From the NCBI RefSeq assembly GCF_016863115.1, contig NZ_BOOG01000027.1, positions 1 to 64,000 on the forward strand: DNA of 64,000 bases, given 5' to 3'. The notes under the pieces are model-generated. The model saw only the letters and a program-made list of their open reading frames with translations. It ran no database searches and was not told the origin of the DNA. The position numbers were made by a program, and so were the translations under genes. This document shows positions 16,549 to 61,865 of the stretch, piece after piece. This DNA is from Sphaerimonospora thailandensis. GTDB taxonomy: Bacteria > Actinomycetota > Actinomycetes > Streptosporangiales > Streptosporangiaceae. Each line of letters starts with the position of its first letter. The stretch's first letter is position 1.

Positions 16549-17169
16549 ATGAACATGCGGCAGACGGCTGAAGGCACGGCCCGCCCGGCGGGCCGCCCGC
16601 GCAGCGAGAAGGCGGAGAAGGCGATCGTCGACGCCACCCTCGACCTGCTCGGCGAGGGCATCGGCGTGGCGGAGTTGTCCATCGAAGCGATCGCGGCACG
16701 CGCCGGCGTCGGGAAGACCACCATCTACCGGCGCTGGTCCAACAAGGAGGACCTGGTCGTCGACGCGCTGGCGACGCTCAAGCCGCCGATCCCGCCGCTG
16801 TCCGGCACGTCGGTCCGGGACGATCTGGTGACCTATCTCCGGGTGCTTCGCGAGGAGTCGAGCCACCAGCGCACCCGCTGCATCATGAACATCGCCATGA
16901 GCGACTCCGAGCGGCACCCCCGCCTGGCGGAGCGGTTCCGGGAGATCGCCCTCGAACCGCGCAGGACCGCCCTGCGCGGCGTCCTGCGCCGGGGGATGGA
17001 GACCGGCGAGCTGCGCGCGGACCTCGACGAGGAGATGGCGATGGCCATCCTCTCCGGGGCCATTATGTGGTACACGAAGTGGCACAGATCCGGCGTCGAG
17101 CCGCCCGAGGACGTGGCCGAACGCATAGTGGACGAAGCCCTCACCGGCTTTCGCGCCAGCGGTTGGTGA
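16549..17169 (+). CDS. TetR-family repressor of the adjacent efflux gene
   Basis: The 206-aa protein has an N-terminal TetR helix-turn-helix (SIEAIAARAGVGKTTIYRRW at about 45-64) after an Arg/Ala-rich arm. The ligand-binding half is helical and ends in IVDEALTGFRASGW. It starts seven bases after the exporter stop codon, so the two form one transcript, and the paired motifs upstream of the exporter are candidate binding sites. The 3' end overlaps the convergent nadE gene by 29 bases. Confidence 0.9.
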   Translation: MNMRQTAEGTARPAGRPRSEKAEKAIVDATLDLLGEGIGVAELSIEAIAARAGVGKTTIYRRWSNKEDLVVDALATLKPPIPPLSGTSVRDDLVTYLRVLREESSHQRTRCIMNIAMSDSERHPRLAERFREIALEPRRTALRGVLRRGMETGELRADLDEEMAMAILSGAIMWYTKWHRSGVEPPEDVAERIVDEALTGFRASGW

Positions 17170-18934
17170 TGGGCAGGCGGCGGTCCCGGCCGAAGTTCTT
17201 TGAGGTGATCTTGGGGCCCGGCGGGTACTGGCGGCGCTTGTACTCGGCCAGGTCCACCAGCCGGAGGATGCGCGCCACCAGTTCGGGGTCGTGGCCGGCC
17301 GCGACCAGCTCGTCGCGGCCCATGTCCCGCTCCACGTAGTCGCGCAGCAACGGGTCGAGCACGTCGTACGCCGGGAGCGAGTCGGTGTCGCGCTGGTCGG
17401 GCCGTAGCTCGGCGCTCGGCTCCTTGGTGATGGAGTTCTCCGGGATCGGCGGGTCGCCGGGCTGGGCGTTGCGCCACTCGGCAAGCTTCCAGACCAGGCT
17501 CTTGAGCACGTCCTTGATCGGCGCGTAGCCGCCGGCCGAGTCGCCGTACAGCGTGGAGTATCCGACGGCCAGCTCGCTCTTGTTGCCGGTCGTCAGCACC
17601 AGGTGGCCGTGCTCGTTGGACAGGCTCATCAGCAGCATCCCGCGCACCCGGGCCTGGAGGTTCTCGGCGGCCAGGCCGCTGAGGTCGATCTCCTTCTCGA
17701 AGGCGGTGACGATGTCCGCGATCGGAATGACGCGCGCGTTCAGTCCCTGACGGCGCACGAGCTCCTCGGCGTCGGCGAGCGAGTGGTCGGAGGAGTATCG
17801 CGATGGCATCAGCACCACATGGATCCGCGAGGGCCCGATCGCGTCGGCCGCGATCGTCGCGGTCAGCGCGGAGTCGATGCCGCCGGACAGCCCGAGGATG
17901 ACCGACCTGAAACCGTTCTTGGCGACGTAGTCGCGCAGGCCGAGAACCAGCGCCTGGTAGATCTCGGCCAGGTCGTCGAGGCGCTCGGCGATCAGCGGCG
18001 GCTCCGGCCGGTACGGTTCGACCGGCGCGGCCGACAGCACCAGCCGCTCGACGGTGATCTCGCTGTCGTCCCGCGGGCCCATCCGCGGATCGCCGGGCTC
18101 GGCGGCCCCCTCGGGCAACGCGGGCAACGCGGGCAATTCGGGCAACGCGGGCAGATCGAGATCGGTTACCAGCAGTTCCTCCTCGAACCGCCGGGCGCGG
18201 GCGACCAGCTCGCCGCGCGCGTCCACGATCAGCGAGTCGCCGTCGAAGATCAGCTCGTCCTGGCCGCCGACCATGTTCACGTAGGCGAGCGCGCAGCCCG
18301 CCTCCCTGGCCCGCCGCGCGCACAATTCCAGCCGCACGTCGTCCTTGTCCGTCTCGTACGGCGAGCCGTTCGGCACCACGAGCAGCCCCGCGCCGGCCTC
18401 GGCGACGACCGAGACCGGGCCGCCCTCCTGCCACAGGTCCTCGCAGATCGCGATGGCCACGTCGACCCCGTGCAGCCGGAAGATCGGTAACCGGTTGCCG
18501 CGCGCGAAGTAGCGGTGCTCGTCGAACACGCCGTAGTTCGGCAGGTGATGCTTGGCCGATCTCATCACCGCCTCGCCCCCGTGCAGGACGGCGGCCGCGT
18601 TGAGCGGCTTTCCTCCGCCGTCGGCCCGGTCGCCGTCGGTTCTGTCGCCGTCGGTCCGGTCGAGGTAGCCGACGACCACCGGCAGCCCGCCGAGACCCTC
18701 GGCCGCCAGCCGGGCCGCGACCGCCGTCAGCGCGGACCGCGACGCCTCGACGAACGACGAGCGCAGCACCAGGTCCTCGGCCGGATAGCCGGTCAGGAAC
18801 AGCTCGGGGAAGACGACCAGGTGGGCGTCGCGCTCCGCGGCCCGGCGGGTCCACTCGACGAGCTTGTCCGCGTTGCCGGTGAAGTCGCCGACGACGGGAT
18901 TGGTCTGGGCGAGCGCGATGCGAAGTTGAGCCAC
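17141..18934 (-). CDS. nadE: Glutamine-dependent NAD+ synthetase
   Basis: This 597-aa enzyme converts nicotinate adenine dinucleotide to NAD+ using glutamine nitrogen. The N-terminal nitrilase-type glutaminase has Glu44 (FPELFLTGYP), Lys128 (RSAKHHLPNYGVFDE) and Cys164 (AIAICEDLW). The synthetase domain has the ATP pyrophosphatase loop LGLSGGIDSALT and the segment TGNKSELAVGYSTLYGD. Two in-frame tandem repeats make loops at about residues 92-106 (DRTDGDRTDGDRADG) and about 265-280 (LPALPELPALPALPEG), absent from most homologues I know. The start is GTG 18934. A palindrome 27 bp upstream is shared with nadA. Confidence 0.95.
   Translation of the reverse strand: MAQLRIALAQTNPVVGDFTGNADKLVEWTRRAAERDAHLVVFPELFLTGYPAEDLVLRSSFVEASRSALTAVAARLAAEGLGGLPVVVGYLDRTDGDRTDGDRADGGGKPLNAAAVLHGGEAVMRSAKHHLPNYGVFDEHRYFARGNRLPIFRLHGVDVAIAICEDLWQEGGPVSVVAEAGAGLLVVPNGSPYETDKDDVRLELCARRAREAGCALAYVNMVGGQDELIFDGDSLIVDARGELVARARRFEEELLVTDLDLPALPELPALPALPEGAAEPGDPRMGPRDDSEITVERLVLSAAPVEPYRPEPPLIAERLDDLAEIYQALVLGLRDYVAKNGFRSVILGLSGGIDSALTATIAADAIGPSRIHVVLMPSRYSSDHSLADAEELVRRQGLNARVIPIADIVTAFEKEIDLSGLAAENLQARVRGMLLMSLSNEHGHLVLTTGNKSELAVGYSTLYGDSAGGYAPIKDVLKSLVWKLAEWRNAQPGDPPIPENSITKEPSAELRPDQRDTDSLPAYDVLDPLLRDYVERDMGRDELVAAGHDPELVARILRLVDLAEYKRRQYPPGPKITSKNFGRDRRLPITNRWRESR
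18112..18156 (-). repeat. Nine-base tandem repeat inside nadE
   Basis: Five consecutive nine-base units of the type CGGGCAACG (plus strand) code for a Leu-Pro-Ala/Glu run in a linker of NadE. They are in frame, so unit gain or loss would change only loop length. Confidence 0.75.
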
Positions 18935-18999: not shown

Positions 19000-20475
19000 T
19001 CAGGTCCCGGCCGAGTCGGGGCTGACCAGGCCCTTCTCGTAGGCGAGCACCACGAGTTGCGCCCGGTCGACCAACTCCAGCCGCCGCAGCAGGCCGGTGA
19101 TCTCGTGGGCTATCTCCCGCTCCGGCACGCCCAGTGTCATCGCGATCTGCCGGTTGGTGAAGCCCCGGGCGACCAGCTTGATCCGGTCGACGTCGGAGTC
19201 CGACAGGCCTTGGGGCACGCCGGGGTCGCTGCGCCCGGCGAAGGCGGCGATGAGGTGTGTGGTGACGGCGGGGTCCAGCAGCGCGTCGCCGGCGACGGCC
19301 GCCCGGATCGCGGCGATGAGCTGCTCGGGCGGCGACGTCTTCAGCATGAAGCCGCTCACCCCGGCCCGCAGCGCCGCGTAGAGGTTCTCGCCGGTGCCGA
19401 ACGTGGTCATCATGATCACCTTGGTCGGCGCTCCGGAGGCGAGGATCCGGCGGGCCGCGGCCAGGCCGTCCAGGCGTGGCATCTGGATGTCCATGAGCAC
19501 CACGTCCGGCCGGGTCGCCATGGTCAGCGCGATCGCCTGCTCGCCGTTCTCGGCCTCGCCCGCGAGCTCGAGGCCGGGCTCGCTCGCGAGGATCACTTTC
19601 AGCCCGATCCTGACCAGCCCCTGGTCGTCGGCGATCAGCACGCGCAGCGGCGCGCGCGTCTCCAGGTCCGGGGCCGGTTCCGGCGCGGGCGCAGGGGACG
19701 TGGCGGGGGTCAGGTGGGCGTCGTCGAGGTGCGGGGCCTGGGCGAGGATGTCCTGCTGGAGCCGCTGGAGCGCGGGCCCGGGATCCAGGCCCAGCTCCTC
19801 GCGCACCACCTCCCTGGCACGGTGCAGCGCGCCCAGCGCGTCCCCGCGCCGCCCTGCCCGGTAGAGCGCGAGCGCGAGCAGCCGCCAGGCCTCCTCACGG
19901 AGTGGGTGCGCCGAGGCGTGGGCCTCCAGGTCGGGAATGAGCGAGTCGGTACGGCCGAGCCGTACGGCGGCATCAGCACGCCGTTCCACCGCGAGCAGGC
20001 GGAGCTCGTCGAGCCGGTGCGCCTCCGCCTGCGCCCACGGCAGGTCCTGGAACTCGGCGAGCGCCGGGCCACGCCACAGAGCGAGCGCGCTCTCCATCCG
20101 ATCGAGCGTCTCGGCCGGATCGCCGCCGTGGTCGACTTTCACCAGGTTCTCGAACCACCAGCAGTCGACGTCCTCCGGCCGGGCGCGCAGCGCGTACCCC
20201 GGCGGCGCCGACACCAGGACGCCGGCCTCCTGCCGTGGCGCCCGATGCGGTTCCAGCACCCGCCGCAGACGCGAGACGTAACCCTGGATGGTCGACAGCG
20301 CCTGGGCCGGGGGCTCGCCCGGCCACAGCTCGTCGATCAGTATGCCGATCGGTACGGCACGCCCCCCGGCCACGAGCAACCGGGCGAGCACGGCTTGTTG
20401 CCGCAGCCCGCCCAGGTCGAGCGTCTCGCCCTCGACAATTACCTCAAGAGGCCCGAGAGCACGAAATATCACCAT
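19000..20475 (-). CDS. SARP - receiver - LuxR-type HTH fusion regulator
   Basis: The 491-aa protein begins with an OmpR-type DNA-binding domain (about 1-90: ALGPLEVIVEGETLDLGGLR) and a bacterial transcriptional activation domain (about 95-240), together a SARP. After a Pro/Ala linker there is a complete receiver domain (277-390): acidic pair in LIADDQG, phospho-acceptor Asp329 in LMDIQMPRLDG, Thr in MMTTF and Lys379 in FMLKTS. A C-terminal NarL/LuxR-like HTH (about 424-485) is recognisable but diverged in the recognition helix (VPEREIAHEITGLLRRL). The gene follows the histidine-kinase gene by 59 bp on the same strand, so phosphorylation by that kinase is likely. The start is ATG 20475; no strong ribosome site is present. 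Two DNA-binding domains plus a receiver in one chain is unusual. Confidence 0.88.
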   Translation of the reverse strand: MVIFRALGPLEVIVEGETLDLGGLRQQAVLARLLVAGGRAVPIGILIDELWPGEPPAQALSTIQGYVSRLRRVLEPHRAPRQEAGVLVSAPPGYALRARPEDVDCWWFENLVKVDHGGDPAETLDRMESALALWRGPALAEFQDLPWAQAEAHRLDELRLLAVERRADAAVRLGRTDSLIPDLEAHASAHPLREEAWRLLALALYRAGRRGDALGALHRAREVVREELGLDPGPALQRLQQDILAQAPHLDDAHLTPATSPAPAPEPAPDLETRAPLRVLIADDQGLVRIGLKVILASEPGLELAGEAENGEQAIALTMATRPDVVLMDIQMPRLDGLAAARRILASGAPTKVIMMTTFGTGENLYAALRAGVSGFMLKTSPPEQLIAAIRAAVAGDALLDPAVTTHLIAAFAGRSDPGVPQGLSDSDVDRIKLVARGFTNRQIAMTLGVPEREIAHEITGLLRRLELVDRAQLVVLAYEKGLVSPDSAGT

Positions 20476-20534
20476 GGCATCGGTAAGCGTACGGCCGGGG
20501 GACACCGCCCACGTCCGGCCCCGGGGTCGGCCGG

Positions 20535-22631
20535 TCAGCCGGTCAGCGGGAAGCGGGCCTCCACGACGGCGCCGCCGGTGTCGGGGGAGATCACCACGCA
20601 ACTGCCGCCCAGCTCGGCGGCCCGCTCCCGCATCGACGACAGGCCGACCCCCGCCTGGACGTGGTGCGGCAGGCCGATGCCGTCATCGGCGACCCGGACG
20701 CGCAGTTCGCCGTCGCTCCCCGCTGAGCCGTCGCTCCCCGTTGCGCCGTCGCTCCCCGCCCCGGCGGTCCCGCGCCGTTCCGCCGTGATCACCACCCGGG
20801 TGGCCCTCGCATGCCTGCGGATGTTGTTCAGCGCCTCCTGGACGATGCGGTAGACGGCGACCTCCACGGCGGCGGGCAGCTCGGTCATCTCGTCACCGAG
20901 CCGAACCTCGACCCGCGGCGCCTTCTCCGATCCCGTGGCCGACGCCGCGGGGAGAGAAGGCGCCGCGGGGAGAGTCTCCTCCGCCAGCGCCCGTACGGCT
21001 CCCGCCAGGCCGAGGTCGTCGAGGGCCGGCGGACGCAGGCCGTACACCAGCTCCCTGATGTCGCCGGTGACCGCGTCCATGCCGGCCCGCAGATCCCGTA
21101 GCAGCCCGTCGGCGGCGGAGGGGGAGCTGGTCAGGCTCATCCTGGCCATGTTGATCGTCATGGCCATCGCGCCGAGGGTCTGGCCGAGGCCGTCGTGCAG
21201 GTCGCGGCGCAGCCGCCGCCGCTCCTCCTCCCTGGCGGCGAGGATGCGTTCGCGTGACCGCTGCAGATCGGCCGCCATCCGTACGGCGTGGGCCACGTCG
21301 GCCACATGCGGAAGCAGTGTCGCGATCACCCGTTCGTCGTGGGCGGCGGCGAACCGCCGCGCCCCCGGCCTGCCGATCAGCAGCCGTCCCACCGGCTCGC
21401 CGTGCCAGACGAGCGGGATCCGTCTGGCGTCCGGGCCGACTTCGCCGCTTTCGACGTACCGCGGCCGTCCGTCGGCGATCTCGACGGCCACGCCGTCGAC
21501 GGCCAGGCCGTCCCGCACCACCGTGACCACCGCGGACAGCGCGTCGGCCGGGTCGGCCCGCCGCACCTCCTGCGTCAGCCGTTCGGCGAGCAGGGCCGGG
21601 TCGCCCACCCTGCCGTACAGCGCGCGGTCCATCACGCGCTGCAGGGTGCGGCGCAACGGCTGGAAGAAGGCGCCGGCGAACAGGGCCGCCGCGAGTCCGG
21701 CCACCTGGTGGTAGCCGGAGGCCACAAGGCTGGAGACGGCCCCCACCCCGAAGTAGACGGCGCTGATCATGGCCAGCAGCCCGGCCGCGATGAAGGTCCG
21801 GCTGATTACCGTGTCGATGCCGTACAACCGGTAGCGCAGCGCGGCGAACAGGATCGCGAACGGGATGAGCGCCGTCCACACCGTCGCCGGGATCCACCAG
21901 TCCGGACCCAGCAGGTAGAACACGACGTACCCGGCGAAGACGGTGAGGGGCCAGGCGATCTGCCGCCGCGTGACCGGGTCGGCGCGGCGCAGCCGCAGCG
22001 CCAGCGAGGCCAGCGAGGCGACCACGCAGAACCTGATGACGTACTGCAGGACCGTCTGGGCCGGCTGGTAGTAGGGGAGGAGGGCCCGGATCTCCAGCGG
22101 GTTGTGGATCACTTCCGGCCAGGGGTACGCGGCGGGGTCGGGGTCGGGCCGCAGCAGGGCGAGCCCGGCCTCGGCGGCGGTGGCGGCGACGCCCAGCACG
22201 GCGAGGGGGATCCAGCGGCGCGAGGGCAGCCGGCCGGTGGGCGAGCACAGCGGAACCAAGATGGCCAGCAGCAGGCCGGCCGCCGCCCAGCACACGAGCT
22301 GGACCGCCCGGGCGACGATGGCCGCCCGCATCTGGTCCTGCGCGGCCCAATGGAACATGAGCGCGGTGAAGGCCACGTTCCCCGACCCGAACAGGCCGCC
22401 CACGCAGATCAGCCAGGCCGTGCGGAACCGGGGCCGCTGGGACACCAGGACCGCCCCGGTGAGCGGGAACGTGAGCGCGACGCCGAAGTCCGGGTTCAGC
22501 GGCGGCCGGGGCTGCCACTCGGCGGGGATCCGGAGCTGGACCGAAATCCCCACGATCGTCAGGACCAGCGCGGCCGCGGCCATGACCCAGGCGACCGCCC
22601 GCGCGGGGAAAACCGGGGAGTTCTCGTCCAT
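20535..22631 (-). CDS. NarL-type membrane sensor histidine kinase
   Basis: The 698-aa protein has about eight membrane helices in its first 320 residues, a GAF-like domain at about 340-450, then a HisKA_3 dimerisation domain with His479 in RRDLHDGLGQTLG. The HATPase domain shows EALNNIRRHARA (N box), VADDGIGLP (G1) and GVGLSSMRERAAELGG (G2). A tandem-repeat loop (GSDGATGSDGSAGSDG) is inserted in the ATPase domain. It is the likely kinase for the SARP-receiver fusion encoded 59 bp downstream. An MFS gene ends 48 bp upstream, so exporter, kinase and regulator form one transcription unit. The signal is not apparent. Confidence 0.92.
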   Translation of the reverse strand: MDENSPVFPARAVAWVMAAAALVLTIVGISVQLRIPAEWQPRPPLNPDFGVALTFPLTGAVLVSQRPRFRTAWLICVGGLFGSGNVAFTALMFHWAAQDQMRAAIVARAVQLVCWAAAGLLLAILVPLCSPTGRLPSRRWIPLAVLGVAATAAEAGLALLRPDPDPAAYPWPEVIHNPLEIRALLPYYQPAQTVLQYVIRFCVVASLASLALRLRRADPVTRRQIAWPLTVFAGYVVFYLLGPDWWIPATVWTALIPFAILFAALRYRLYGIDTVISRTFIAAGLLAMISAVYFGVGAVSSLVASGYHQVAGLAAALFAGAFFQPLRRTLQRVMDRALYGRVGDPALLAERLTQEVRRADPADALSAVVTVVRDGLAVDGVAVEIADGRPRYVESGEVGPDARRIPLVWHGEPVGRLLIGRPGARRFAAAHDERVIATLLPHVADVAHAVRMAADLQRSRERILAAREEERRRLRRDLHDGLGQTLGAMAMTINMARMSLTSSPSAADGLLRDLRAGMDAVTGDIRELVYGLRPPALDDLGLAGAVRALAEETLPAAPSLPAASATGSEKAPRVEVRLGDEMTELPAAVEVAVYRIVQEALNNIRRHARATRVVITAERRGTAGAGSDGATGSDGSAGSDGELRVRVADDGIGLPHHVQAGVGLSSMRERAAELGGSCVVISPDTGGAVVEARFPLTG
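20710..20763 (-). repeat. Eighteen-base tandem repeat in the kinase gene
   Basis: Three near-identical 18-base units (CCGTCGCTCCCCG plus five variable bases) encode the GSDG-type loop within the HATPase domain. They are in frame. Confidence 0.75.
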
Positions 22632-23930: not shown

Positions 23931-23999
23931 GGGCCCATCCTTGGTCAATCCGCTCAGGCGACGCCAATCGTTTTACGGCCGCTCAGGGGGAGCGGCTTC

Positions 24000-24015
24000 G
24001 TAACCCGCGCGAAAC
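24000..24015 (+). promoter_or_regulatory. Candidate GlnR box upstream of glnA2
   Basis: GTAAC-N6-GAAAC at 24000-24015 matches exactly the GTnAC-N6-GAAAC consensus of the actinomycete nitrogen regulator GlnR. It lies 55 bp before the TTG start of glnA2. Only one a/b pair is present. Confidence 0.55.
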
Positions 24016-24070
24016 ACGCGGAGGGCACACTGGTAGGAGACGCGACGTGTGATTTTCCGAGAGGTACGTC

Positions 24071-25432
24071 TTGGACCGCCAGCAGGAATTCGTCCTCCGC
24101 ACACTGGAAGAGCGGGACATCCGGTTCATCCGGCTGTGGTTCACCGACGTGCTCGGCTTCCTGAAGTCGGTGGCGATAGCGCCGGCCGAACTGGAGGGCG
24201 CCTTCTCCGAGGGCATCGGGTTCGACGGGTCGGCCGTCGAGGGCTTCTCCCGGGTATACGAGTCGGACATGCTGGCCAAACCCGACCCGTCGACCTTCCA
24301 GATCCTGCCGTGGCGCAGCGAGAACCCGGGCGCCGCCCGAATGTTCTGCGACATCCTCCTGCCGAACGGGTCGCCGTCCCACGCCGATCCCCGCTGGGTG
24401 CTGAAGCGGGCGCTGGCCAAGGCCGCCGACATGGGCTTCACCTTCTACACCCATCCGGAGATCGAGTTCTTCCTGCTGCGCGGCAGACCGGAGAAGGGCG
24501 GCCTGCCGGAGCCGATCGACGACGGCGGCTACTTCGACCACACGCCGCACAGCGCCGGCCACGACTTCCGCCGCCAGGCGATCATGATGCTGGAGTCGAT
24601 GGGCATCTCCGTCGAGTACAGCCACCACGAGGGCGCTCCCGGCCAGCAGGAGATCGACCTGCGGTATGCCGACGCGCTCACGACGGCCGACAACATCATG
24701 ACCTTCCGCCTGGTCATGAAGGAGGTCGCGCTGGAGCAGGGCATCTGGGCCTCGTTCATGCCCAAGCCGTTCACCAGGTATCCCGGCTCCGGCATGCACA
24801 CCCACATGTCGCTGTTCGAGGGCGACCGCAACGCGTTCCACGAGGCGGGCGCCGCCTATCAGCTCTCCAAGACCGCCAGGTCGTTCATCGCCGGCCTGCT
24901 GAGGCACGCCGCCGAGATCACCGCGGTGTGCAACCAGTGGATCAACTCCTACAAGCGGCTGTGGGGCGGGGCCGAGGCGATCGCCGGGGCGGGCGGCGAG
25001 GCCCCCTCCTACATCTGCTGGGGCCACAACAACCGGTCCGCGCTCGTCCGCGTGCCGATGTACAAGCCGCACAAGGGCGCCTCGACCCGTGTCGAGTTCC
25101 GCTCGCTGGACTCCTCGTGCAACCCCTATCTGGCCTTCGCGCTGATCCTGGCCGCCGGGCTGAAGGGCATCGAGGAGGGGTACGAGATGCCGCCCGAGGC
25201 CGAGGACGACGTGTGGGCGCTGACCAGCCGGGAACGGCGGGCCCTCGGCATCCAGCCGCTGCCGCAGTCGCTGGATGAGGCGATCTCGACGATGGAGCAC
25301 AGCGAGATGGTCGCCGAGACGCTGGGCGAGCACGTCTTCGACTACTTCCTGCGCAACAAACGGGCCGAGTGGCGGGAGTACCGCCGCCGGGTGACCCAGT
25401 TCGAGCTCGACCGCTATCTGCCCGTCCTCTGA
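24071..25432 (+). CDS. glnA2: Glutamine synthetase-like protein GlnA2
   Basis: This is a 453-aa type I glutamine synthetase fold: beta-grasp domain (FIRLWFTDVLGFLKSVAI), the latch GFDGSAVEGFSRVYESDM, metal-binding HPEIEFFLL and SHHEGAPGQQEIDLRYADAL, and the ATP loop SGMHTHMSLF. The position of the adenylylated tyrosine of GlnA is occupied by Trp (DDVWALTSRERRALG), so GlnE probably cannot modify it. GlnA2 proteins in actinomycetes are alpha-type relatives of uncertain substrate; some glutamylate polyamines. The start is TTG 24071 with GAGAGG seven bases upstream. It is immediately followed by glnE, a conserved pairing. Confidence 0.92.
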   Translation: MDRQQEFVLRTLEERDIRFIRLWFTDVLGFLKSVAIAPAELEGAFSEGIGFDGSAVEGFSRVYESDMLAKPDPSTFQILPWRSENPGAARMFCDILLPNGSPSHADPRWVLKRALAKAADMGFTFYTHPEIEFFLLRGRPEKGGLPEPIDDGGYFDHTPHSAGHDFRRQAIMMLESMGISVEYSHHEGAPGQQEIDLRYADALTTADNIMTFRLVMKEVALEQGIWASFMPKPFTRYPGSGMHTHMSLFEGDRNAFHEAGAAYQLSKTARSFIAGLLRHAAEITAVCNQWINSYKRLWGGAEAIAGAGGEAPSYICWGHNNRSALVRVPMYKPHKGASTRVEFRSLDSSCNPYLAFALILAAGLKGIEEGYEMPPEAEDDVWALTSRERRALGIQPLPQSLDEAISTMEHSEMVAETLGEHVFDYFLRNKRAEWREYRRRVTQFELDRYLPVL

Positions 25433-25441
25433 GGGGGCGGG

Positions 25442-28400
25442 GTGGGCGCCGGTCCGCGATTCCGGACGACGGCCGGGCGCCTGGCCGCACTCGGCTTCGC
25501 CGACGGCGCCAGGGCCGAGCGACTGCTGCGCGGTCTCGGCCCGGAGGCGGCCGATGACCTCGAACTGCTCGACGACCTCGCGACCGCGGCCGACCCCGAT
25601 CTCGCGCTCACCTCGCTGAGCCGCCTGACGGACAGAGAACCCGGCATATCGGCCGCTTTGCGGGCCGATCCCGGCCTGCGCCGCCGGCTCCTCCGCGTGT
25701 TCGGCCTGAGCGCCGCCCTCGCCGAGCACGTCGTACGGCACCCGGCCGACGTCGGGCGGCTGGGCGGCCCGGGCAGTCCGGGCAGTCCGGGCAGTGCGGG
25801 CGGTGCGGGCGGTGCGGGCGGTGCGGGCGGTGCGGGCAGTACGGCGCCGTCGTACGAGGAACTGCCGCGGGCCGTCCAGGCCGGCCACGAGCATCCCCTC
25901 GACGTGCTGCGCGTCGCCTACCGCGGCAGGTTGCTGCGGCTGGCCGCACGCGACGTCATGGGAGAGGCGTCGCTCATCGAGGTCACGGCGGGGCTGGCCG
26001 ATCTGGCGGCCGCCGCCCTCGAGGCCGCTCTCGCCATCGCCCGCGCCGAGACCGAGGACGCCGGAGACGTCCGGCTCGCCGTCATCGGCATGGGCAAGTG
26101 CGGCGCCCGCGAGCTCAACTACATCTCCGACGTCGATGTGATCTTCGTGGCCGAGCCGGCGGAGGGCGTCGAGGAGACCCACGCGCTTCGCGTCGCCACC
26201 CGGCTCGCCCAGGCCGTGATGTGGGCCTGTTCGGCGAGCACGGCGGAGGGATCCCTCTGGGAGGTGGACGCCGGGCTGCGGCCGGAAGGCAAGATCGGCC
26301 CGCTGGTGCGCACCCTCGACAGCCACCTGGCCTACTACCGGCGCTGGGCGAAGACGTGGGAGTTCCAGGCGCTGCTGAAGGCGCGGCCGGTCGCCGGCGA
26401 CCTCGAACTCGGCCACGCGTACGTCGCCGCGGTCGGCGAACTGGTCTGGCAGGCCTCGGCCCGGGACGGCTTCGTCGAGGACGTGCAGGCGATGCGCCGC
26501 CGCGTGGAGGCCCACGCGCGGACCAACGCCCGGGCCGGCGAGGCCGACAGGCAGATCAAACTCGGCCCGGGCGGGCTGCGGGACATCGAGTTCGCCGTGC
26601 AGTTGCTCCAGCTCGTGCACGGCCGCACCGACCCGCGGCTACGCCGCCGCGCCACGCTCCCGGCACTGGCCGCCCTGTCCGAGGGCGGATATGTCGCGCG
26701 GGACGACGCCAAGGCGCTCGCCGAGGCGTACACCTTCCTCCGCAGGGTCGAGCACCTGCTCCAGCTCCACCGGCTGCGCCGCACGCACGTGGTGCCCGAC
26801 GACGAGGCCGACCTGCGCCGCCTCGGCCGGGGCCTCGGCATGACGGCCGACCCGGCGGGGGAGTTCACCGAGACGTGGAAGCGCCACGCTCGCCAGGCGC
26901 GGCGGCTGCACGAGAAGCTGTTCTACCGGCCGCTGCTCCAGGCGGTCGCCCGGCTGCCGGAGACGCAGGCCCGGCTCTCTCCGGAGGCCGCCGCCGCCCG
27001 GCTGGAGGCGCTCGGCTACGCCGACCCCGAGGGCGCGCTGCGGCACATCGCCGCGCTGACCGGCGGCGTCTCCCGGCGGGCCGCGATCCAGCGGACGCTG
27101 CTGCCGGTCATGCTCGGCTGGTTCGCCGACGCGCCCGACCCGGACGCCGGCCTGCTGGGTTTCCGCCAGATCAGCGACAAACTCGGCTCGACGCCCTGGT
27201 ACCTGCGGCTGCTGCGCGACGAGACCGCCGTGGCCGAGCGCCTTGCCCACCTGCTCGGCACCGGCCGCTACGTGACCGGGCTCCTGCTGCACGCACCTGA
27301 GGCGGTCGCCATGCTCGGCTCGCCGGCCGAGCTCGCCGTACGGCCCGCCGCGGCGCTGGCCGCAGAGGCCGCCGCGGCGGTCGGCCGGCACGGCGCCCAC
27401 GCCGAGAGCGCGGTCGCCGCCGTACGCGCGCTGCGCCGCAGGGAGCTGCTCCGCACGGCGTGCGCCGACCTTTCCGGGCTGATCGACGTCGAAGAGGTCG
27501 GCCGGGTCCTGTCGTCACTGGCCGACGTGACGATCCAGGCCGCGCTGGACGCGGCGCTCAACGCGGTGCGCGACAAGATGCCGGGCGGCGCCGACCTCCC
27601 GACCAGGATCGCGGTGATCGCGATGGGCCGGCTCGGCGGCATGGAATGCTCCTACGGCAGCGACGCCGACGTGATGTTCGTGCATGAGCCCCGGCCGGGT
27701 GCCTCAGAACGGGAGGCGGCCCAGGCGGCCCACGCGGTCGCCGAGGAACTGCGCAGGCTGCTCGCGCTGCCGGCCCCCGATCCGCCCCTGCACGTCGACG
27801 CGGACCTGCGGCCGGAGGGACGGCAGGGCCCCCTGGTCCGTACGCTCGCCTCCTACCGCGCCTACTACAGCCGATGGTCGTCCCACTGGGAGGCCCAGGC
27901 GCTGCTGCGCGCCCGCTTCTGCGCCGGAGACGATGTGCTCGGCCGGGACTTCGTCGGCCTCGTCGACCCGCTGCGCTTTCCGGTGGGAGGCGTCTCGCCC
28001 GAGGCCGTACGGGAGATCCGCAAGCTGAAGGCGCGGATGGAGGCCGAGCGGCTGCCGCGCGGGGCCGACCCGGCCCTGCACACCAAACTGGGCCGGGGCG
28101 GCCTGGCCGACGTCGAATGGACGGCCCAGCTCATCCAGCTCCGGCACGCGGCAGCAGTACCGGAGCTGCGGACGACCCGCACGCTGGAGGCCCTGCGGGC
28201 GGCGGTCCGGGAGGGCCTGCTCGACCCGGCGGACGAGGCGGAGCTGGCACGGGCGTGGCGGCTGGCGTCCCGGATCCGCGACGCGATCATGCTGGTGCGC
28301 GGGCGGGCGGGCGACGGCGTGCCGACCCTGGTGAAGGAGCGCACGCTGGTCGCGCGGGCCCTCGGATATCCGCCCGACGGGTCGGAGGACTTCGTCGACG

Positions 28401-28462
28401 ACTACCGGCGGGTGACCCGCCGGGCCCGCGCGGTGGTGGAACGAGTCTTCTATGAGGACTGA
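25442..28462 (+). CDS. glnE: Glutamine synthetase adenylyltransferase / deadenylase
   Basis: The 1006-aa protein has two nucleotidyltransferase domains. The first (deadenylase) shows GMGKCGARELNYISDVDVIF at about 220, the second (adenylyltransferase) AMGRLGGMECSYGSDADVMF at about 723. Each is followed by its helical partner domain (LGPGGLRDIEFAVQLLQL and LGRGGLADVEWTAQLIQL). It sets the activity of GlnA by adding or removing AMP on a tyrosine according to nitrogen status. The start is GTG 25442, nine bases after glnA2. A Gly-rich linker near residues 107-133 is encoded by a nine-base tandem repeat and is not a normal family feature. Confidence 0.96.
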   Translation: MGAGPRFRTTAGRLAALGFADGARAERLLRGLGPEAADDLELLDDLATAADPDLALTSLSRLTDREPGISAALRADPGLRRRLLRVFGLSAALAEHVVRHPADVGRLGGPGSPGSPGSAGGAGGAGGAGGAGSTAPSYEELPRAVQAGHEHPLDVLRVAYRGRLLRLAARDVMGEASLIEVTAGLADLAAAALEAALAIARAETEDAGDVRLAVIGMGKCGARELNYISDVDVIFVAEPAEGVEETHALRVATRLAQAVMWACSASTAEGSLWEVDAGLRPEGKIGPLVRTLDSHLAYYRRWAKTWEFQALLKARPVAGDLELGHAYVAAVGELVWQASARDGFVEDVQAMRRRVEAHARTNARAGEADRQIKLGPGGLRDIEFAVQLLQLVHGRTDPRLRRRATLPALAALSEGGYVARDDAKALAEAYTFLRRVEHLLQLHRLRRTHVVPDDEADLRRLGRGLGMTADPAGEFTETWKRHARQARRLHEKLFYRPLLQAVARLPETQARLSPEAAAARLEALGYADPEGALRHIAALTGGVSRRAAIQRTLLPVMLGWFADAPDPDAGLLGFRQISDKLGSTPWYLRLLRDETAVAERLAHLLGTGRYVTGLLLHAPEAVAMLGSPAELAVRPAAALAAEAAAAVGRHGAHAESAVAAVRALRRRELLRTACADLSGLIDVEEVGRVLSSLADVTIQAALDAALNAVRDKMPGGADLPTRIAVIAMGRLGGMECSYGSDADVMFVHEPRPGASEREAAQAAHAVAEELRRLLALPAPDPPLHVDADLRPEGRQGPLVRTLASYRAYYSRWSSHWEAQALLRARFCAGDDVLGRDFVGLVDPLRFPVGGVSPEAVREIRKLKARMEAERLPRGADPALHTKLGRGGLADVEWTAQLIQLRHAAAVPELRTTRTLEALRAAVREGLLDPADEAELARAWRLASRIRDAIMLVRGRAGDGVPTLVKERTLVARALGYPPDGSEDFVDDYRRVTRRARAVVERVFYED
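25762..25842 (+). repeat. Nine-base tandem repeat inside glnE
   Basis: Nine units of the type GGGCGGTGC or GGGCAGTCC lie head to tail and encode a run of Gly, Ser, Pro and Ala. They keep the reading frame and lie between the N-terminal helices and the first catalytic domain. Confidence 0.85.
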
Positions 28463-37732: not shown

Positions 37733-39157
37733 CTAACAGTCGTAGTACAACTCGAACTCGTGGGGGTGCGGGCGGAGGCGGAGCGGCGTGATCTCGTGGT
37801 CCCGCTTGTAGGAGACCCACGTCTGGATGAGGTCGGGGGTGAACACCCCGCCTTCGAGCAGGTACTCGTGGTCGGCCTCGAGGTTGTCGAGCGCCTCCTC
37901 GAGCGAGGCGGGCACCTTGGCGACGCCGAGTGCCTCCTCGGGCGGCAGCTCGTACAGGTCCTTGTCGAGCGGCTCCGGCGGCTCGATCTTGTTGCGGACG
38001 CCGTCCAGACCGGCCATGAGCATGGCCGCGAACGCGAAGTACGGGTTGCACGACGGGTCCGGCACGCGGAACTCGATGCGCTTGGCCTTCGGGTTCGACC
38101 CGGTGATCGGGATGCGCACGCAGGCCGAACGGTTGCGCTGCGAGTAGAGCAGGTTGATCGGGGCCTCGTAACCGGGCACCAGGCGGTGGTAGGAGTTCAC
38201 CGTCGGGTTGGTGAGGGCGAGCAGCGACGGGGCGTGCTTGAGCAGGCCGCCGATGTAGTACCGCGCCGTGTCCGACAGCCCGGCGTAGCCGACCTCGTCG
38301 TAGAACAGCGGCTCGCCGTCCTTCCAGAGCGACTGGTGGCAGTGCATGCCCGAGCCGGCCTCACCGAAGAGCGGCTTCGGCATGAACGTGACGGTGTGGC
38401 CGTGCCGCATGGCCGTGTTCTTGACGATGTACTTGTACAGCATCAGGTTGTCGGCCGTCTTGAGCAGCGTGCCGAACCGGAAGTCGATCTCGGCCTGGCC
38501 GGCCGTGCCCACCTCGTGGTGCTGGATCTCGGTCTCGATGCCGGCCTCGATGAGGTTGCGGACCATCTCCGAGCGCAGGTCGGTGAAGTGGTCCATCGGC
38601 GGGACCGGGAAGTATCCGCCCCTGTAACGCGGCTTGTAACCCAGGTTGCCGCCCTCGGAGGCCTTGCCGGTGTTCCAGGCGCCCTCGACGGAGTCGATGA
38701 AGTAGTAACCCGCGTTCGCCCGGGTCTCGAAGCGCACGTCGTCGAAGATGTAGAACTCGGCCTCGGAGCCGAAGTAGGCGGTGTCCGCGATGCCGGTGCC
38801 CCGGAGATACTCCTCGGCCTTCCTGGCCACGTTACGGGGGTCGCGGCTGTAGGCCTCCCGGGTCAGCGGGTCGTGCACGAAGAAGTTGATGTTCAGCGTC
38901 TTGTGCTTGCGGAACGGGTCGAGCACTGCGGTGGACGGGTCCGGCAGCAGCAGCATGTCGGACTCGTGGATGGCCTGGAAACCGCGGATGGACGACCCGT
39001 CGAACATCAGGCCGTCGGTGAAGACGTTCGCGCCGAAGTTCTCGACGGGGAAGGTGAAGTGGTGCGTCGTGCCCGGCAGGTCGGTGAACCTGACGTCTAC
39101 GAACTGCACCCCCTCGTCCCGGATGAACTTGAGGACGTCATCGGCGGAGTTGAACAC
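37733..39157 (-). CDS. glnA: Glutamine synthetase, type I
   Basis: This 474-aa enzyme makes glutamine from glutamate and ammonia with ATP. Hallmarks are the latch [17 protein letters not shown], the metal site [28 protein letters not shown], the ATP loop [14 protein letters not shown] and the adenylylation site at Tyr402 in DLYELPPEE. GlnE, encoded 9 kb away, should modify that tyrosine. The start is GTG 39157 with GGAGG seven bases upstream. A four-part GlnR-type box lies 53 bp further up and a strong terminator follows, so it is a single-gene unit. In relatives glnA, glnE and glnA2 lie closer together; here accessory genes separate them. Confidence 0.97.
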
Positions 39158-39209
39158 TCTCGAACCTCCAAGGGTCATCGACCGGCAGACCCGAAAATAT
39201 GCGCGAGCC

Positions 39210-39247
39210 GTTTCCGTGCCATGTCTCGTTTGTTTCGCCGGTGTTAA
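39210..39247 (-). promoter_or_regulatory. Candidate four-part GlnR box upstream of glnA
   Basis: On the coding strand the order is TTAAC-N6-GAAAC-N6-GACAT-N6-GAAAC, with every spacer exactly six bases. This is the a1-b1-a2-b2 layout of GlnR sites before actinomycete glnA genes (consensus GTnAC-N6-GAAAC). The b sites are perfect and the a sites imperfect. It would allow activation of glnA during nitrogen limitation. Confidence 0.65.
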
Positions 39248-39304
39248 GGTCACCGGCCGTCCCCGCGCGCCACCCGGCGCGAAACGTGAATAGGCTGAGG
39301 AGCC

Positions 39305-39766
39305 ATGAACGAGCGCCAACCGCGATGGACGCAGACCTGGCTCGGCGGGGTCCGGGCCGCCGGCGTCGACCTGGGCCACCCAGGTGTACGGCTCGGCCTG
39401 CCGGAATCGGGCAGCGGCGCGGTCGCCGGATGGGGACGCAGGATCGGGGCCGTCCTGGTCGACTGGCTGATCTGCTCCTGGGCCATCGCCGCGGGCCTGC
39501 TGCGCCAGCAGGGACAGGACGTCGGCGTGGTCGGCCTCGGCGTATTCGCCTTGGAGTACGTGCTGCTGGTGAGCACGGTCGGGATGACGCTGGGCATGCG
39601 GCTGCTGCGCATCCGGGTCGCCGCCCTCAACGGCGGCCGGCCGTCGCTACCCGCGGTGCTGCTGCGCACGTTCCTGCTGTGCCTCGCCGTACCCGCTCTG
39701 ATCTGGGACCGCGACCGCCGGGGCCTGCACGACCGCGCCTCCGGCACCGTCGTGGTCAATCTCTGA
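39305..39766 (+). CDS. RDD-family membrane protein
   Basis: The 153-aa protein has the RDD signature: Arg in [20 protein letters not shown] and the Asp pair in [20 protein letters not shown] at the end, with three membrane helices between. RDD proteins are small membrane proteins of mostly unknown role; some act in ion transport. GAGGAG precedes the ATG. It is divergent from glnA, a conserved neighbourhood in actinobacteria, and its 3' end overlaps the convergent methyltransferase gene by 11 bases. Confidence 0.88.
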
Positions 39767-59226: not shown

Positions 59227-59337
59227 GGCGTCCAGCCTACCGGGAGTGCAACTTAGTGACGCCCTCGCGCGTTATGCGTAGGGTGAACCCAGGCGGTTTC
59301 GCCATGCATAACCTTGAGAAGGGGACGGCCGACGCGC

Positions 59338-60135
59338 ATGAGCGTGATGAAGAGACTTTCCATGATCTTTAAGTCCAAGGCCAACAAGGCCTTGGACAAG
59401 ATGGAAGATCCACGAGAGACGCTGGACTACTCGTACCAGCGGCAACTCGAGTTGCTGCAGAAGGTCCGCCGGGGTGTGGCCGACGTGGCGACCAGCCGCA
59501 AGCGGGTCGAGTTGCAGATCAACCAGCTTGAGGGGCAGGGCGCCAAGCTGGAGAACCAGAGCCGGCAGGCGCTCGCCGCCGGGCGGGAGGACCTTGCGCG
59601 CGAGGCGCTCACGCGACGCAACGGCCTGAACGCGCAGATCGCCGACCTCCGCCTCCAGTACAACAACCTCCATGGCGAGGAGGAGAAGCTCACGCTCGCC
59701 AGCCAGCGGCTGCAGGCGAAGGTGGACTCCTTCCGCACCAAGAAGGAGACCATCAAGGCCACCTACACGGCGGCGGAGGCGCAGACGCGGATCAACGAGG
59801 CGTTCTCCGGCATCTCCGAGGAGATGGGCGACGTCGGCCTGGCCATCCAGCGTGCCGAGGACAAGACCGCGCAGATGCAGGCGCGGGCCGGTGCGATCGA
59901 CGAGCTGCTGGCGAGCGGCGCCCTGGACGACTTCACCGGCCAGCGCGACGACATCCAGGCCGAGCTCGACCGCATGGGCGCCGGCAGCGACGTCGAGCTG
60001 GAGATCGCCAAGATGAAGGCCGAGCTCGGCCAGGGCCCCGCGCCGCAGGGCGCGATCGAGGCCGGACAGCCGGGCCAGGCGGGGCAGCCCGCGCAGCGGA
60101 CCCAGCAGCTGCGCCAGCCGGGGGAGGGCCTGTGA
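59338..60135 (+). CDS. pspA: PspA/IM30-family membrane-stress protein
   Basis: The 265-aa protein begins MSVMKRLSMIFKSKANKALD, the amphipathic helix that binds membranes, followed by the long coiled coil of PspA/Vipp1 (DYSYQRQLELLQKVRRGVAD, RKRVELQINQLEGQGAKLEN). A Gln/Pro/Gly tail follows. PspA proteins form ESCRT-III-like assemblies that stabilise a damaged cell membrane. It overlaps the next gene by four bases. With PspAA, an HtpX-type protease and PspAB it makes the four-gene actinobacterial/archaeal type of stress operon. Confidence 0.94.
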   Translation: MSVMKRLSMIFKSKANKALDKMEDPRETLDYSYQRQLELLQKVRRGVADVATSRKRVELQINQLEGQGAKLENQSRQALAAGREDLAREALTRRNGLNAQIADLRLQYNNLHGEEEKLTLASQRLQAKVDSFRTKKETIKATYTAAEAQTRINEAFSGISEEMGDVGLAIQRAEDKTAQMQARAGAIDELLASGALDDFTGQRDDIQAELDRMGAGSDVELEIAKMKAELGQGPAPQGAIEAGQPGQAGQPAQRTQQLRQPGEGL

Positions 60136-60410
60136 TCGTCAGAATCATGGGAGAGGGCCAGGTCGAGATCGCCGAGGCCGACATCGACGTGCTCAACGAG
60201 CTCGACGGCGAGCTCGAGGCCGCCATCGAGACCGATGACGAGGACGTGTTCCGCGTCAAGCTGCACGCGCTGCTGGACAAGGTCCGGCAGGTGGGCAAGG
60301 CACTGCCGGCGGATTCGCTCGAGCCGTCCGAGCTGATCCTGCCGCCCGCCGACGCTTCGATCGAGGAGGTGCGGGAGATGCTCGGCGACACCGGGCTCAT
60401 CCCTGGATGA
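60132..60410 (+). CDS. pspAA: PspA-associated protein PspAA
   Basis: The 92-aa protein starts VIVRIMGEGQVEIAEADIDV and continues LDGELEAAIETDDEDVFRVK, the PspAA domain that accompanies PspA in actinobacteria and archaea. It is a small acidic cytosolic protein thought to be an adaptor of PspA. It overlaps pspA (GTGA) and the htpX gene (ATGA), so translation of all three is coupled. Confidence 0.88.
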   Translation: MIVRIMGEGQVEIAEADIDVLNELDGELEAAIETDDEDVFRVKLHALLDKVRQVGKALPADSLEPSELILPPADASIEEVREMLGDTGLIPG

Positions 60411-61303
60411 TGGCTGCGACGCGATTCGCCCCGGACCGCGGCCTGACCGTGCGGATGACCGTGACGATGTTCCTGCTCGGGCTCGTCTACGTGGCGTTCA
60501 TGGCCGCGCTGGTGGCTCTCGGTGTGCGGGCGATCGCCGTGCTCGTGGTCGCCGCGGGGCTCCTGCTGGTGCAGTTCCTCCTGTCCGACAAGATCGCGCT
60601 TTTCGCGATGGGCGGGCGTGAGGTCTCCCCGCAGGAGGCCCCCGAGCTGCACGGGATCATCGACCGGCTCAGCGCGATGGCCGGAATGCCCAAGCCCCGG
60701 GTGGCGATCGCGGACACCGACATGCCCAACGCGTTCGCGACCGGGCGCGACCAGAAGAACTCGGTGGTGTGCGTGACCACCGGCATCCTGCGCAGGCTGG
60801 ACGCCCGGGAGCTGGAGGGCGTGATCGCGCATGAGATGTCGCACGTCGCCCACCGCGACGTCGCCGTCATGACGATCGCGTCGTTCCTCGGCATCGTGGC
60901 CGGGCTGATGACCCGGTTCGCGCTGTACACCGGCCTCGCGGGAGGCCGCCGCAGCAACAACGGCCCGCCCATCGGGGCGATCATCTTCCTCGTCTCCGGC
61001 CTGGTGTACGCGGTGAGCTTCCTGCTGACGAGAGCGCTGTCGCGCTACCGGGAGCTCGCCGCCGACCGCGCCGGAGCGCTGCTCACGCAGCGGCCCTCCG
61101 CGCTGGCGAGCGCGCTGACCAAGATCAGTGGGGAGATCGCCAGGATCCCGACGAGGGACCTGCGTGAGGCGCAGCCGTTCAACGCGTTCTTCTTCGCCCC
61201 CGCCGTCTCCGGGCAGAGCATAGCCTCGCTGCTCTCGACGCACCCGCCGCTGGAGCGCCGCCTGGAGCAGCTCGCCCGGATCTCCGCGGCGCTGAACCGC
61301 TGA
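60407..61303 (+). CDS. htpX: HtpX-like M48 membrane metalloprotease
   Basis: The 298-aa protein has two N-terminal membrane helices, the zinc motif HEMSHVAHRD at about residue 140, two further helices and the third ligand Glu in RYRELAADRAGALL. Such proteases degrade misfolded membrane proteins. Its place inside the pspA operon links proteolysis with membrane repair. ATG 60407 overlaps pspAA. Confidence 0.92.
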   Translation: MMAATRFAPDRGLTVRMTVTMFLLGLVYVAFMAALVALGVRAIAVLVVAAGLLLVQFLLSDKIALFAMGGREVSPQEAPELHGIIDRLSAMAGMPKPRVAIADTDMPNAFATGRDQKNSVVCVTTGILRRLDARELEGVIAHEMSHVAHRDVAVMTIASFLGIVAGLMTRFALYTGLAGGRRSNNGPPIGAIIFLVSGLVYAVSFLLTRALSRYRELAADRAGALLTQRPSALASALTKISGEIARIPTRDLREAQPFNAFFFAPAVSGQSIASLLSTHPPLERRLEQLARISAALNR

Positions 61304-61316
61304 TCGGCCGACGACA

Positions 61317-61865
61317 ATGGGATGGCTGGACGCACTGCTGGGGAGATCGAAGCCCGCCAAGCCCGATCTCGACGCGCTGTTCGCGCTGCCCGCCGCCGCC
61401 GTCACCCTTCAGGCGGCCACCGCTTTCACCCCGGTCGGCATCGGCTCGGTCTCCTTCCGCGCGGCCGAAGGCGGCGCGTTCGCCCGCCTCGAGCAGGACG
61501 TCCAGGCGCTGCTCGGCAAGTCCGAGTTGGTCCGCGACTCCTACGGTTACACCTGGGTCGTGGTGCGGGACCCGGACGTCTCCGCGCTCGTCACCGACCT
61601 CCACGCGGCCAACTCGTCGCTGGAGTCCGCCGGGTTCGGGCCGTCGCTGCTGTGCTCGCTGGTGACCTTCGCCGATCCGTCCGGCCGGCGGCTCGCGATC
61701 GTCTACCTCTACAAGCGCGGCACCTTCTACCCCTTCGCCCCGGCGGGGGACACCCGCCGGGACAACGCTCTGGAGCTTCAGGTGCGCGGGATCCTCGGCG
61801 AGGAGCTGAAGATCGAGCCGGACCTCGCGAGCTGGTTCCCCGTCTGGGGCGCACCGGGTCTGTGA
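61317..61865 (+). CDS. pspAB: PspA-associated protein PspAB
   Basis: The 182-aa protein begins MGWLDALLGRSKPAKPDLDA and contains VRDSYGYTWVVVRDPDVSAL and VTFADPSGRRLAIVYLYKRG, matching the PspAB family found next to PspA and HtpX. It is cytosolic, of unknown biochemical role, and closes the operon 13 bases after htpX. It converges on nadA. Confidence 0.85.
   Translation: MGWLDALLGRSKPAKPDLDALFALPAAAVTLQAATAFTPVGIGSVSFRAAEGGAFARLEQDVQALLGKSELVRDSYGYTWVVVRDPDVSALVTDLHAANSSLESAGFGPSLLCSLVTFADPSGRRLAIVYLYKRGTFYPFAPAGDTRRDNALELQVRGILGEELKIEPDLASWFPVWGAPGL

Follow-up and report, generated by a model that had tools for sequence, protein, structure and literature searches.

The solved SARP closest to the protein described here is that of AfsR from Streptomyces coelicolor, a SARP with NOD and TPR parts, which is 41-42% identical to it over ~250 residues. 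AfsR differs in its additional domains, an NTPase and TPRs on which Ser/Thr kinases act, where our protein has a receiver and a LuxR domain. EmbR of Mycobacterium tuberculosis (34-36% SARP identity) likewise places a phospho-signalling domain after the SARP, in this case an FHA domain according to the available text of PMC10936776; however, FHA domains read Ser/Thr phosphorylation, whereas our protein carries a His-Asp receiver. In GSU1771, a SARP-family protein of Geobacter sulfurreducens, a receiver is followed by the winged helix-turn-helix (wHTH) and the activator domain (available text of PMC10599522). Compared by description only, it shares the SARP and receiver parts with our fusion, but its receiver is N-terminal and that text mentions no LuxR domain, while the receiver of the fusion lies C-terminal of the BTAD. 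The premise of the sequence-only reading, that SARPs normally stand alone or carry NB-ARC/TPR parts, was thus incomplete, at least on this description of GSU1771. The available text of a SARP review (PMC10972967) distinguishes small, medium, large and SARP-LAL classes and names no receiver class; the medium, large and SARP-LAL proteins share with the fusion a SARP followed by a C-terminal extension, but theirs is NTPase-, TPR- or LAL-like. According to one survey (PMC10663231), 0.6% of the response regulators encoded in biosynthetic clusters contain a BTAD, so that BTAD response regulators have been counted before, without description in the available text of that survey.

From the other direction, the receiver and four-helix C-terminal domain of NarL, LiaR, VraR and DesR align end to end with the fusion, and their partner kinases are of the HisKA_3 type as well. 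The fusion differs from these regulators in the SARP added in front and in a recognition helix that appears to have lost its DNA-reading surface. Searches of the open-access literature with the combinations 'SARP-REC' and 'receiver and SARP' gave no papers, and a SARP preceding a complete NarL-type regulator with a blunted HTH of its own was not found there. The combination of SARP and receiver has a precedent in GSU1771, described in the opposite order; the SARP-first arrangement is a further variant of it.

The fusion is encoded in a 64,000-nucleotide stretch of Sphaerimonospora thailandensis DNA (hereafter, the window) by a single open frame of 491 codons with an ATG start (19000..20475, minus strand, as are all its parts). 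An OmpR-type wHTH (residues 1-98, 20182..20475; Pfam Trans_reg_C at residues 26-95 with 23.7 bits, just under the cut-off of 26.2) is followed by a BTAD activation domain (residues 103-250, 19726..20169; Pfam BTAD at residues 103-244, 145.7 bits), which is the domain order that defines a SARP, and residues 1-250 match the solved proteins AfsR and EmbR both in sequence and in structural alignment. After the BTAD, Pfam yields no NTPase module match in the protein; instead, a hypervariable disordered linker (residues 251-275, 19651..19725) leads into a NarL-type receiver (residues 277-392, 19300..19647; Response_reg at residues 279-391, 86.7 bits) and a LuxR/GerE-type four-helix domain (residues 424-484, 19024..19206; GerE at residues 432-478 with 22.3 bits, just under the cut-off of 23.5), with residues 276-485 matching LiaR, VraR, NarL and DesR. 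The AlphaFold2 model, built from 46 fusions, has a mean pLDDT of 81.2, falls below 50 in the linker (residues 253-273) and contains all four LuxR-domain helices (426-436, 441-448, 452-465 and 471-480); its pTM of 0.52 makes it uninformative on domain packing. Mean entropy over 80 aligned fusions is 0.44 bits for the wHTH, 0.73 for the BTAD, 2.14 for the linker, 0.53 for the receiver and 0.96 for the C-terminal HTH region. The proposal that a SARP, a receiver and a LuxR-type HTH reside in one protein is confirmed by the domain search and by the related loci.

These loci are the best 80 of 149 relatives found in a scan of named genomes, and the alignment of 80 fusions comprises the window and 79 of them. 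A single intact frame is present in 79/80 loci of this best-80 set, the remaining one (L129) ending at its contig end; in L120, L121 and L123 the aligned start lacks an ATG, which leaves their first residues uncertain. The linker varies from 13 to 110 residues among the 80 sequences, yet the frame is always preserved. Its longest form, 110 residues with Gly/Ala-rich repeats, occurs in L046 (genome G010) and L128. An ATG, GTG or TTG codon is found somewhere in residues 251-285 in 77/80 sequences, but an ATG in only 3/80; codon content alone would thus permit an additional internal GTG or TTG start. We reject both an assembly error joining separate orthologues and a pair of genes with an internal start as explanations of the frame: the fused state recurs in 79/80 loci from other genomes, with a linker that changes in length and stays in frame.

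The fusion is a conserved protein of one family of soil actinomycetes. All 80 records of the best-80 set bear Streptosporangiaceae-type genus names, genera that, apart from Sphaerimonospora itself, we take to belong to this family. Among 59 other genomes, a set that partly overlaps with the 80 loci (for example, G001 and L050), 8 carry the full fusion, 7 as one match and G010 as two matches within one 582-aa frame. In a class-wide search of 394 genomes, the full-length matches numbered 14, at E 1.4e-266 or better; every one belongs to the family of S. thailandensis, and no further matches appeared between 1.4e-266 and 2.6e-102. A phylum-wide search of 396 genomes returned the full-length fusion only in the window genome itself. 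At the thresholds of both searches, a fusion that arose independently from unrelated SARP and receiver parts would go undetected. The translations of two long partial matches, L180 and L025, contain no receiver match.

The SARP half looks functional when the DNA and sigma contact residues of AfsR (available text of PMC10936776) are transferred to it through a gapless alignment. In the recognition helix, AfsR S91, R92 and R94 correspond to S68, R69 and R71 of the fusion, identical in 80/80 sequences, and K95 to R72, an Arg in 79/80. Positions that contact sigma-R4 are kept as well: L192 in 78/80, E194, L228, L230 and D231 in 80/80 each, and E227 in 75/80, with Asp in the other 5. Other AfsR contacts are replaced, mostly by one fixed residue: S46, Q48, R87 and T88 by G23, R25, Q64 and G65 in all 80 fusions, R59 and T63 by A36 and A40, and E76 by G53 in 79/80. 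The DNA preference of the fusion SARP may therefore differ from that of AfsR. SARP-like direct repeats of 11 and 22 bp are not enriched upstream of the fusion gene, the only region searched (mean scores 5.47 and 5.47 versus 5.40 and 5.36 for shuffled sequence, in a shuffle of two-base blocks that keeps dinucleotides only approximately), and no repeat position is shared across loci. Periods of 12, 21 and 23 scored slightly higher (5.71, 5.68 and 5.65), without a prior reason to expect them.

The receiver retains the residue set of NarL/FixJ receivers (DD pair, phosphoacceptor Asp, Thr/Ser and Lys) in 80/80 fusions: D283, D284, D329, T357, T358, Y366 and K379 are all identical, and the intact receiver of the sequence-only reading is borne out in full. 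Alignment to LiaR identifies Asp329 (codon 19489..19491) as the predicted phosphoacceptor. The pocket is also complete in all 10 of the best-80 loci that lack an adjacent kinase. From its residues, the receiver is predicted to be kept ready for phosphorylation.

The C-terminal domain presents a mixed picture. Its last helix (residues 466-484, 19024..19080), which in NarL-type proteins makes the dimer contact, has seven residues identical in 80/80 fusions (R471, Q473, V475, A478, Y479, E480 and G482), and positions 441-444 (N, R, Q, I) are conserved. The former recognition helix (residues 452-465, 19081..19122), by contrast, has a mean net charge of -1.95 across the 80 fusions (range -4 to 0, never positive), whereas in free-standing relatives it is invariant, EATVKTHVARVLMK, with a net charge of +2, in 30/30. 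Lys at position 456 is present in 30/30 relatives and 0/80 fusions. With positions assigned from the NarL contacts, the six DNA-facing residues average 2.40 bits of entropy in the fusions, the buried ones 0.23, and the DNA-facing ones of the free-standing relatives 0.00. Eight genomes compared hold both the fusion and the closest free-standing regulator found, ranked by identity (56% to the receiver-LuxR part; others seen reach 44-46%) and encoded tens of kilobases away where both share a contig, such as 34 kb in G001. In these, mean pairwise identity of the recognition helix is 0.45 for the fusion versus 1.00 for the free-standing protein, compared with 0.80 versus 0.85 for the receiver and 0.81 versus 0.96 for the last helix.

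The C-terminal HTH is therefore best supported as the original output domain of the receiver, one that seems to have lost the ability to read DNA: the fold is predicted to be present, but the recognition helix is variable and acidic, unlike that of a DNA-reading HTH of the NarL/FixJ type. The sequence-only reading had called this domain a degenerating original output; the second part of the phrase stands, along with an apparent loss of DNA reading, but 'degenerating' is too strong given the four-helix fold, the buried core and a last helix strongly conserved in 80/80. Only the DNA-reading face seems to be gone, and the domain as a whole does not seem to be decaying. A conserved buried core and last helix, combined with the loss of the DNA-facing surface alone, point to retention of the domain for a different function. 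Taken together with the conserved SARP contacts, this suggests that DNA reading has probably moved to the SARP and that the LuxR domain persists for dimerisation or for control between domains.

In the window, a co-directional sensor histidine kinase gene (HK1; 698 aa, HisKA_3 plus HATPase_c; 20535..22631, minus strand) lies directly upstream of the fusion. The neighbouring kinase that had been pointed out is a general feature, as a co-directional histidine kinase adjoins the fusion in 70/80 of the best-80 loci (upstream in 61, downstream in 23, and on both sides in 14), with 69 within 325 bp and one ~2 kb upstream. A tree of 111 kinases resolves two groups: HK1, with 61 members including the window kinase (30 upstream, 21 downstream and 10 unlinked), and HK2, with 50 (29 upstream and 21 further away). 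HK2, a second conserved kinase paralogue, sits either past the MFS gene or on the opposite side of the fusion (L052:3312-5567 and 20 more loci; loci of the Streptosporangium type, e.g. L079). In the HDGLGQ box, 110/111 kinases retain the His-Asp and 94/111 the Gln; the D-x-x-x-Q motif of such kinases is linked with phosphatase activity. The flanking kinase matches in L120 and L121 are partial (residues 322-698 upstream and 17-388 or 17-532 downstream), and these kinases may be truncated or diverged.

HK1 is mostly kept when it is not linked. The genomes of 8 of the 10 loci without an adjacent kinase encode an HK1-grade kinase elsewhere (59-63% identity), as do 7 of the 8 genomes with an adjacent HK2-type kinase, so that HK1 is encoded elsewhere in 15/18 genomes where it is not adjacent and was not found in the other 3. 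Conversely, all 8 family genomes without the fusion lack an HK1-grade match (at 1e-100 nothing is matched in 7, and the match in the eighth is 42% identical). Of the 10 stretches fetched around unlinked HK1 genes, 9 contain no receiver match, and that of L200 has one ~5 kb off. In the window genome, no HK2 match is better than HK1 itself. We considered whether HK2 forms a separate pair with its own canonical response regulator and rejected this, because no such regulator lies beside HK2: a receiver-LuxR query of 81 sequences (the window and 80 loci) gave other matches in 5 loci only, at 44-46% identity, none of them next to HK2. Two kinases may feed one receiver.

The order MFS-kinase-fusion-nadE-TetR is common among the loci, and throughout the family the locus keeps its position. 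In three genomes that lack the fusion, the MFS gene adjoins nadE (36-272 bp between matches) with neither kinase nor fusion, and in a fourth the 1.6-kb MFS-nadE gap contains no SARP, receiver or kinase match; this adjacency indicates that the kinase-fusion pair is a cassette gained or lost at this site. Upstream of the MFS gene, a palindrome, TTTAG-N4to6-CTAAA, is conserved across four genus groups (e.g. L055, L098 and L089) and degraded in the window (near 23948-24070). A divergent ArsR-type regulator gene (DUF5937 plus HTH_20) lies upstream of the MFS gene in other genomes; in the window, glnA is found there.

The fusion gene probably has its own near-leaderless promoter. A -10-like box, TACGCT, ends 10 bp before the ATG (20486..20491, minus strand), and a TANNNT box occurs at -16 in 67/78 loci and at -15 in 9/78, which puts it 10 or 11 bp ahead of the ATG in 76/78. 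This spacing supports the annotated start and suggests that the fusion is probably transcribed alone, with a very short leader or none, even where a kinase gene lies upstream.

The expectation of a pathway-specific activator was not borne out by the surroundings. The window neighbours of the fusion are nadE, glnA, glnE and the MFS gene, together with panB, lipA, lipB and similar genes; among ~40 window ORFs scanned, there is no PKS- or NRPS-type Pfam match, the others belong to primary metabolism, and an antibiotic cluster was not observed. A pair of glutamine synthetase genes lies with glnE inside ~15 kb (24071-25432, plus; 25442-28462, plus; 37733-39379, minus), and the glutamine-dependent nadE (17141-18934) is close to them. 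Further along, a PspA/IM30 gene, an M48 peptidase gene and a PspAB gene stand in a row (59314-61865, plus).

The architecture, its conservation, the linkage and co-occurrence with the kinase, the loss of the C-terminal DNA surface and the retention of AfsR-type contacts are directly supported. On this basis we propose, with moderate confidence, that the fusion is a two-component regulator in which DNA reading would have moved from the C-terminal LuxR domain to an N-terminal SARP, operated as a kinase-controlled dimerising switch. The membrane kinase HK1 would sense a signal and phosphorylate Asp329, with the HK2 paralogue apparently joining or replacing it in many relatives. By analogy with other NarL-type regulators, the phosphorylated receiver and the last LuxR helix would favour a dimer, and two SARP halves, paired through the flexible linker, could then bind side by side over direct repeats in the -35 region of putative target promoters. 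There, as described for AfsR, the SARP pair would recruit sigma and RNA polymerase by adapting sigma, if the direction of the effect is the same.

We count for this model the receiver pocket conserved in 80/80, the adjacent kinase, the retention of HK1 elsewhere when it is unlinked and the absence of an HK1-grade kinase from all family genomes without the fusion. Against it count the replacement of some AfsR contacts, the lack of 11- or 22-bp repeats in the gene's own promoter, the low pTM, and the missing kinases (10/80 loci without an adjacent one, 3/18 genomes without HK1-grade). It also counts against a kinase-driven dimer that AfsR is hardly affected by in vitro phosphorylation and that its SARP dimerises on DNA unaided, as stated in the available text of PMC10936776.

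One rival reading concerns the kinase that acts on the receiver: HK1 might be tied to the fusion by position only. The immediate upstream position of HK2-type kinases at 29 loci in the tree, and kinases on both sides in 14 of the best-80 loci, would fit HK2 or another kinase as the partner, or several kinases converging on the receiver; the maintenance of unlinked HK1 in 15/18 genomes and the lack of a better HK2 match in the window genome speak for HK1, and we consider another partner doubtful, though quite conceivable. The sign of the switch could also be the opposite, with the unphosphorylated receiver-LuxR part holding the SARP off, for instance through the acidic ex-recognition helix covering its DNA-binding face, and phosphorylation setting it free. 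A helix that is neutral to acidic in 80/80 fusions would suit such a lock, and AfsR is inhibited by its own C-terminal domains in the available text of PMC10936776; however, the exposed residues of the helix are hypervariable, a poor fit to a specific interface, and interdomain packing cannot be read from the AlphaFold2 model. We regard this version as unlikely.

The remaining readings have much less room. Were the receiver-LuxR part an unused relic and the protein in effect a plain small SARP, the ten loci without an adjacent kinase would be readily explained, and SARP domains can act alone (available text of PMC10936776). Yet the receiver is about as conserved as the two SARP domains, and its phosphorylation residues are identical in every fusion, the kinase-less loci included, which makes a relic very improbable. 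Hardly more room is left for a protein that bridges two kinds of site with two DNA-binding HTHs: the intact predicted four-helix fold, the near-cut-off GerE score and the conserved 441-444 positions agree with it, but neither a recognition helix whose charge never exceeds 0, nor the loss of Lys456 from all fusions, nor DNA-facing positions of far higher entropy than the buried ones is what a second DNA-reading domain would be expected to show, and we give it scant credence.

By adapting sigma to weak promoters, SARPs activate antibiotic pathways and others, and the routes by which signals reach them are poorly known. With a SARP on one chain with a receiver and accompanied by a conserved kinase, a defined phosphorylation could control how active the SARP is. 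We further offer, tentatively and as a possibility, that the locus represents an output-domain takeover, in which a regulator's own HTH would have turned into an acidic, non-DNA-binding control module (a dimeriser or a DNA-mimic lock) and would now operate a sigma-adapting SARP attached ahead of it, across a family of antibiotic producers; no description of such a takeover switch was found in the open-access literature. As the closest free-standing regulator found, its DNA-reading helix unchanged, occurs in the same genomes as the fused one, in which that helix has apparently lost its DNA reading, the family may offer a readable case of one domain taking over from another.
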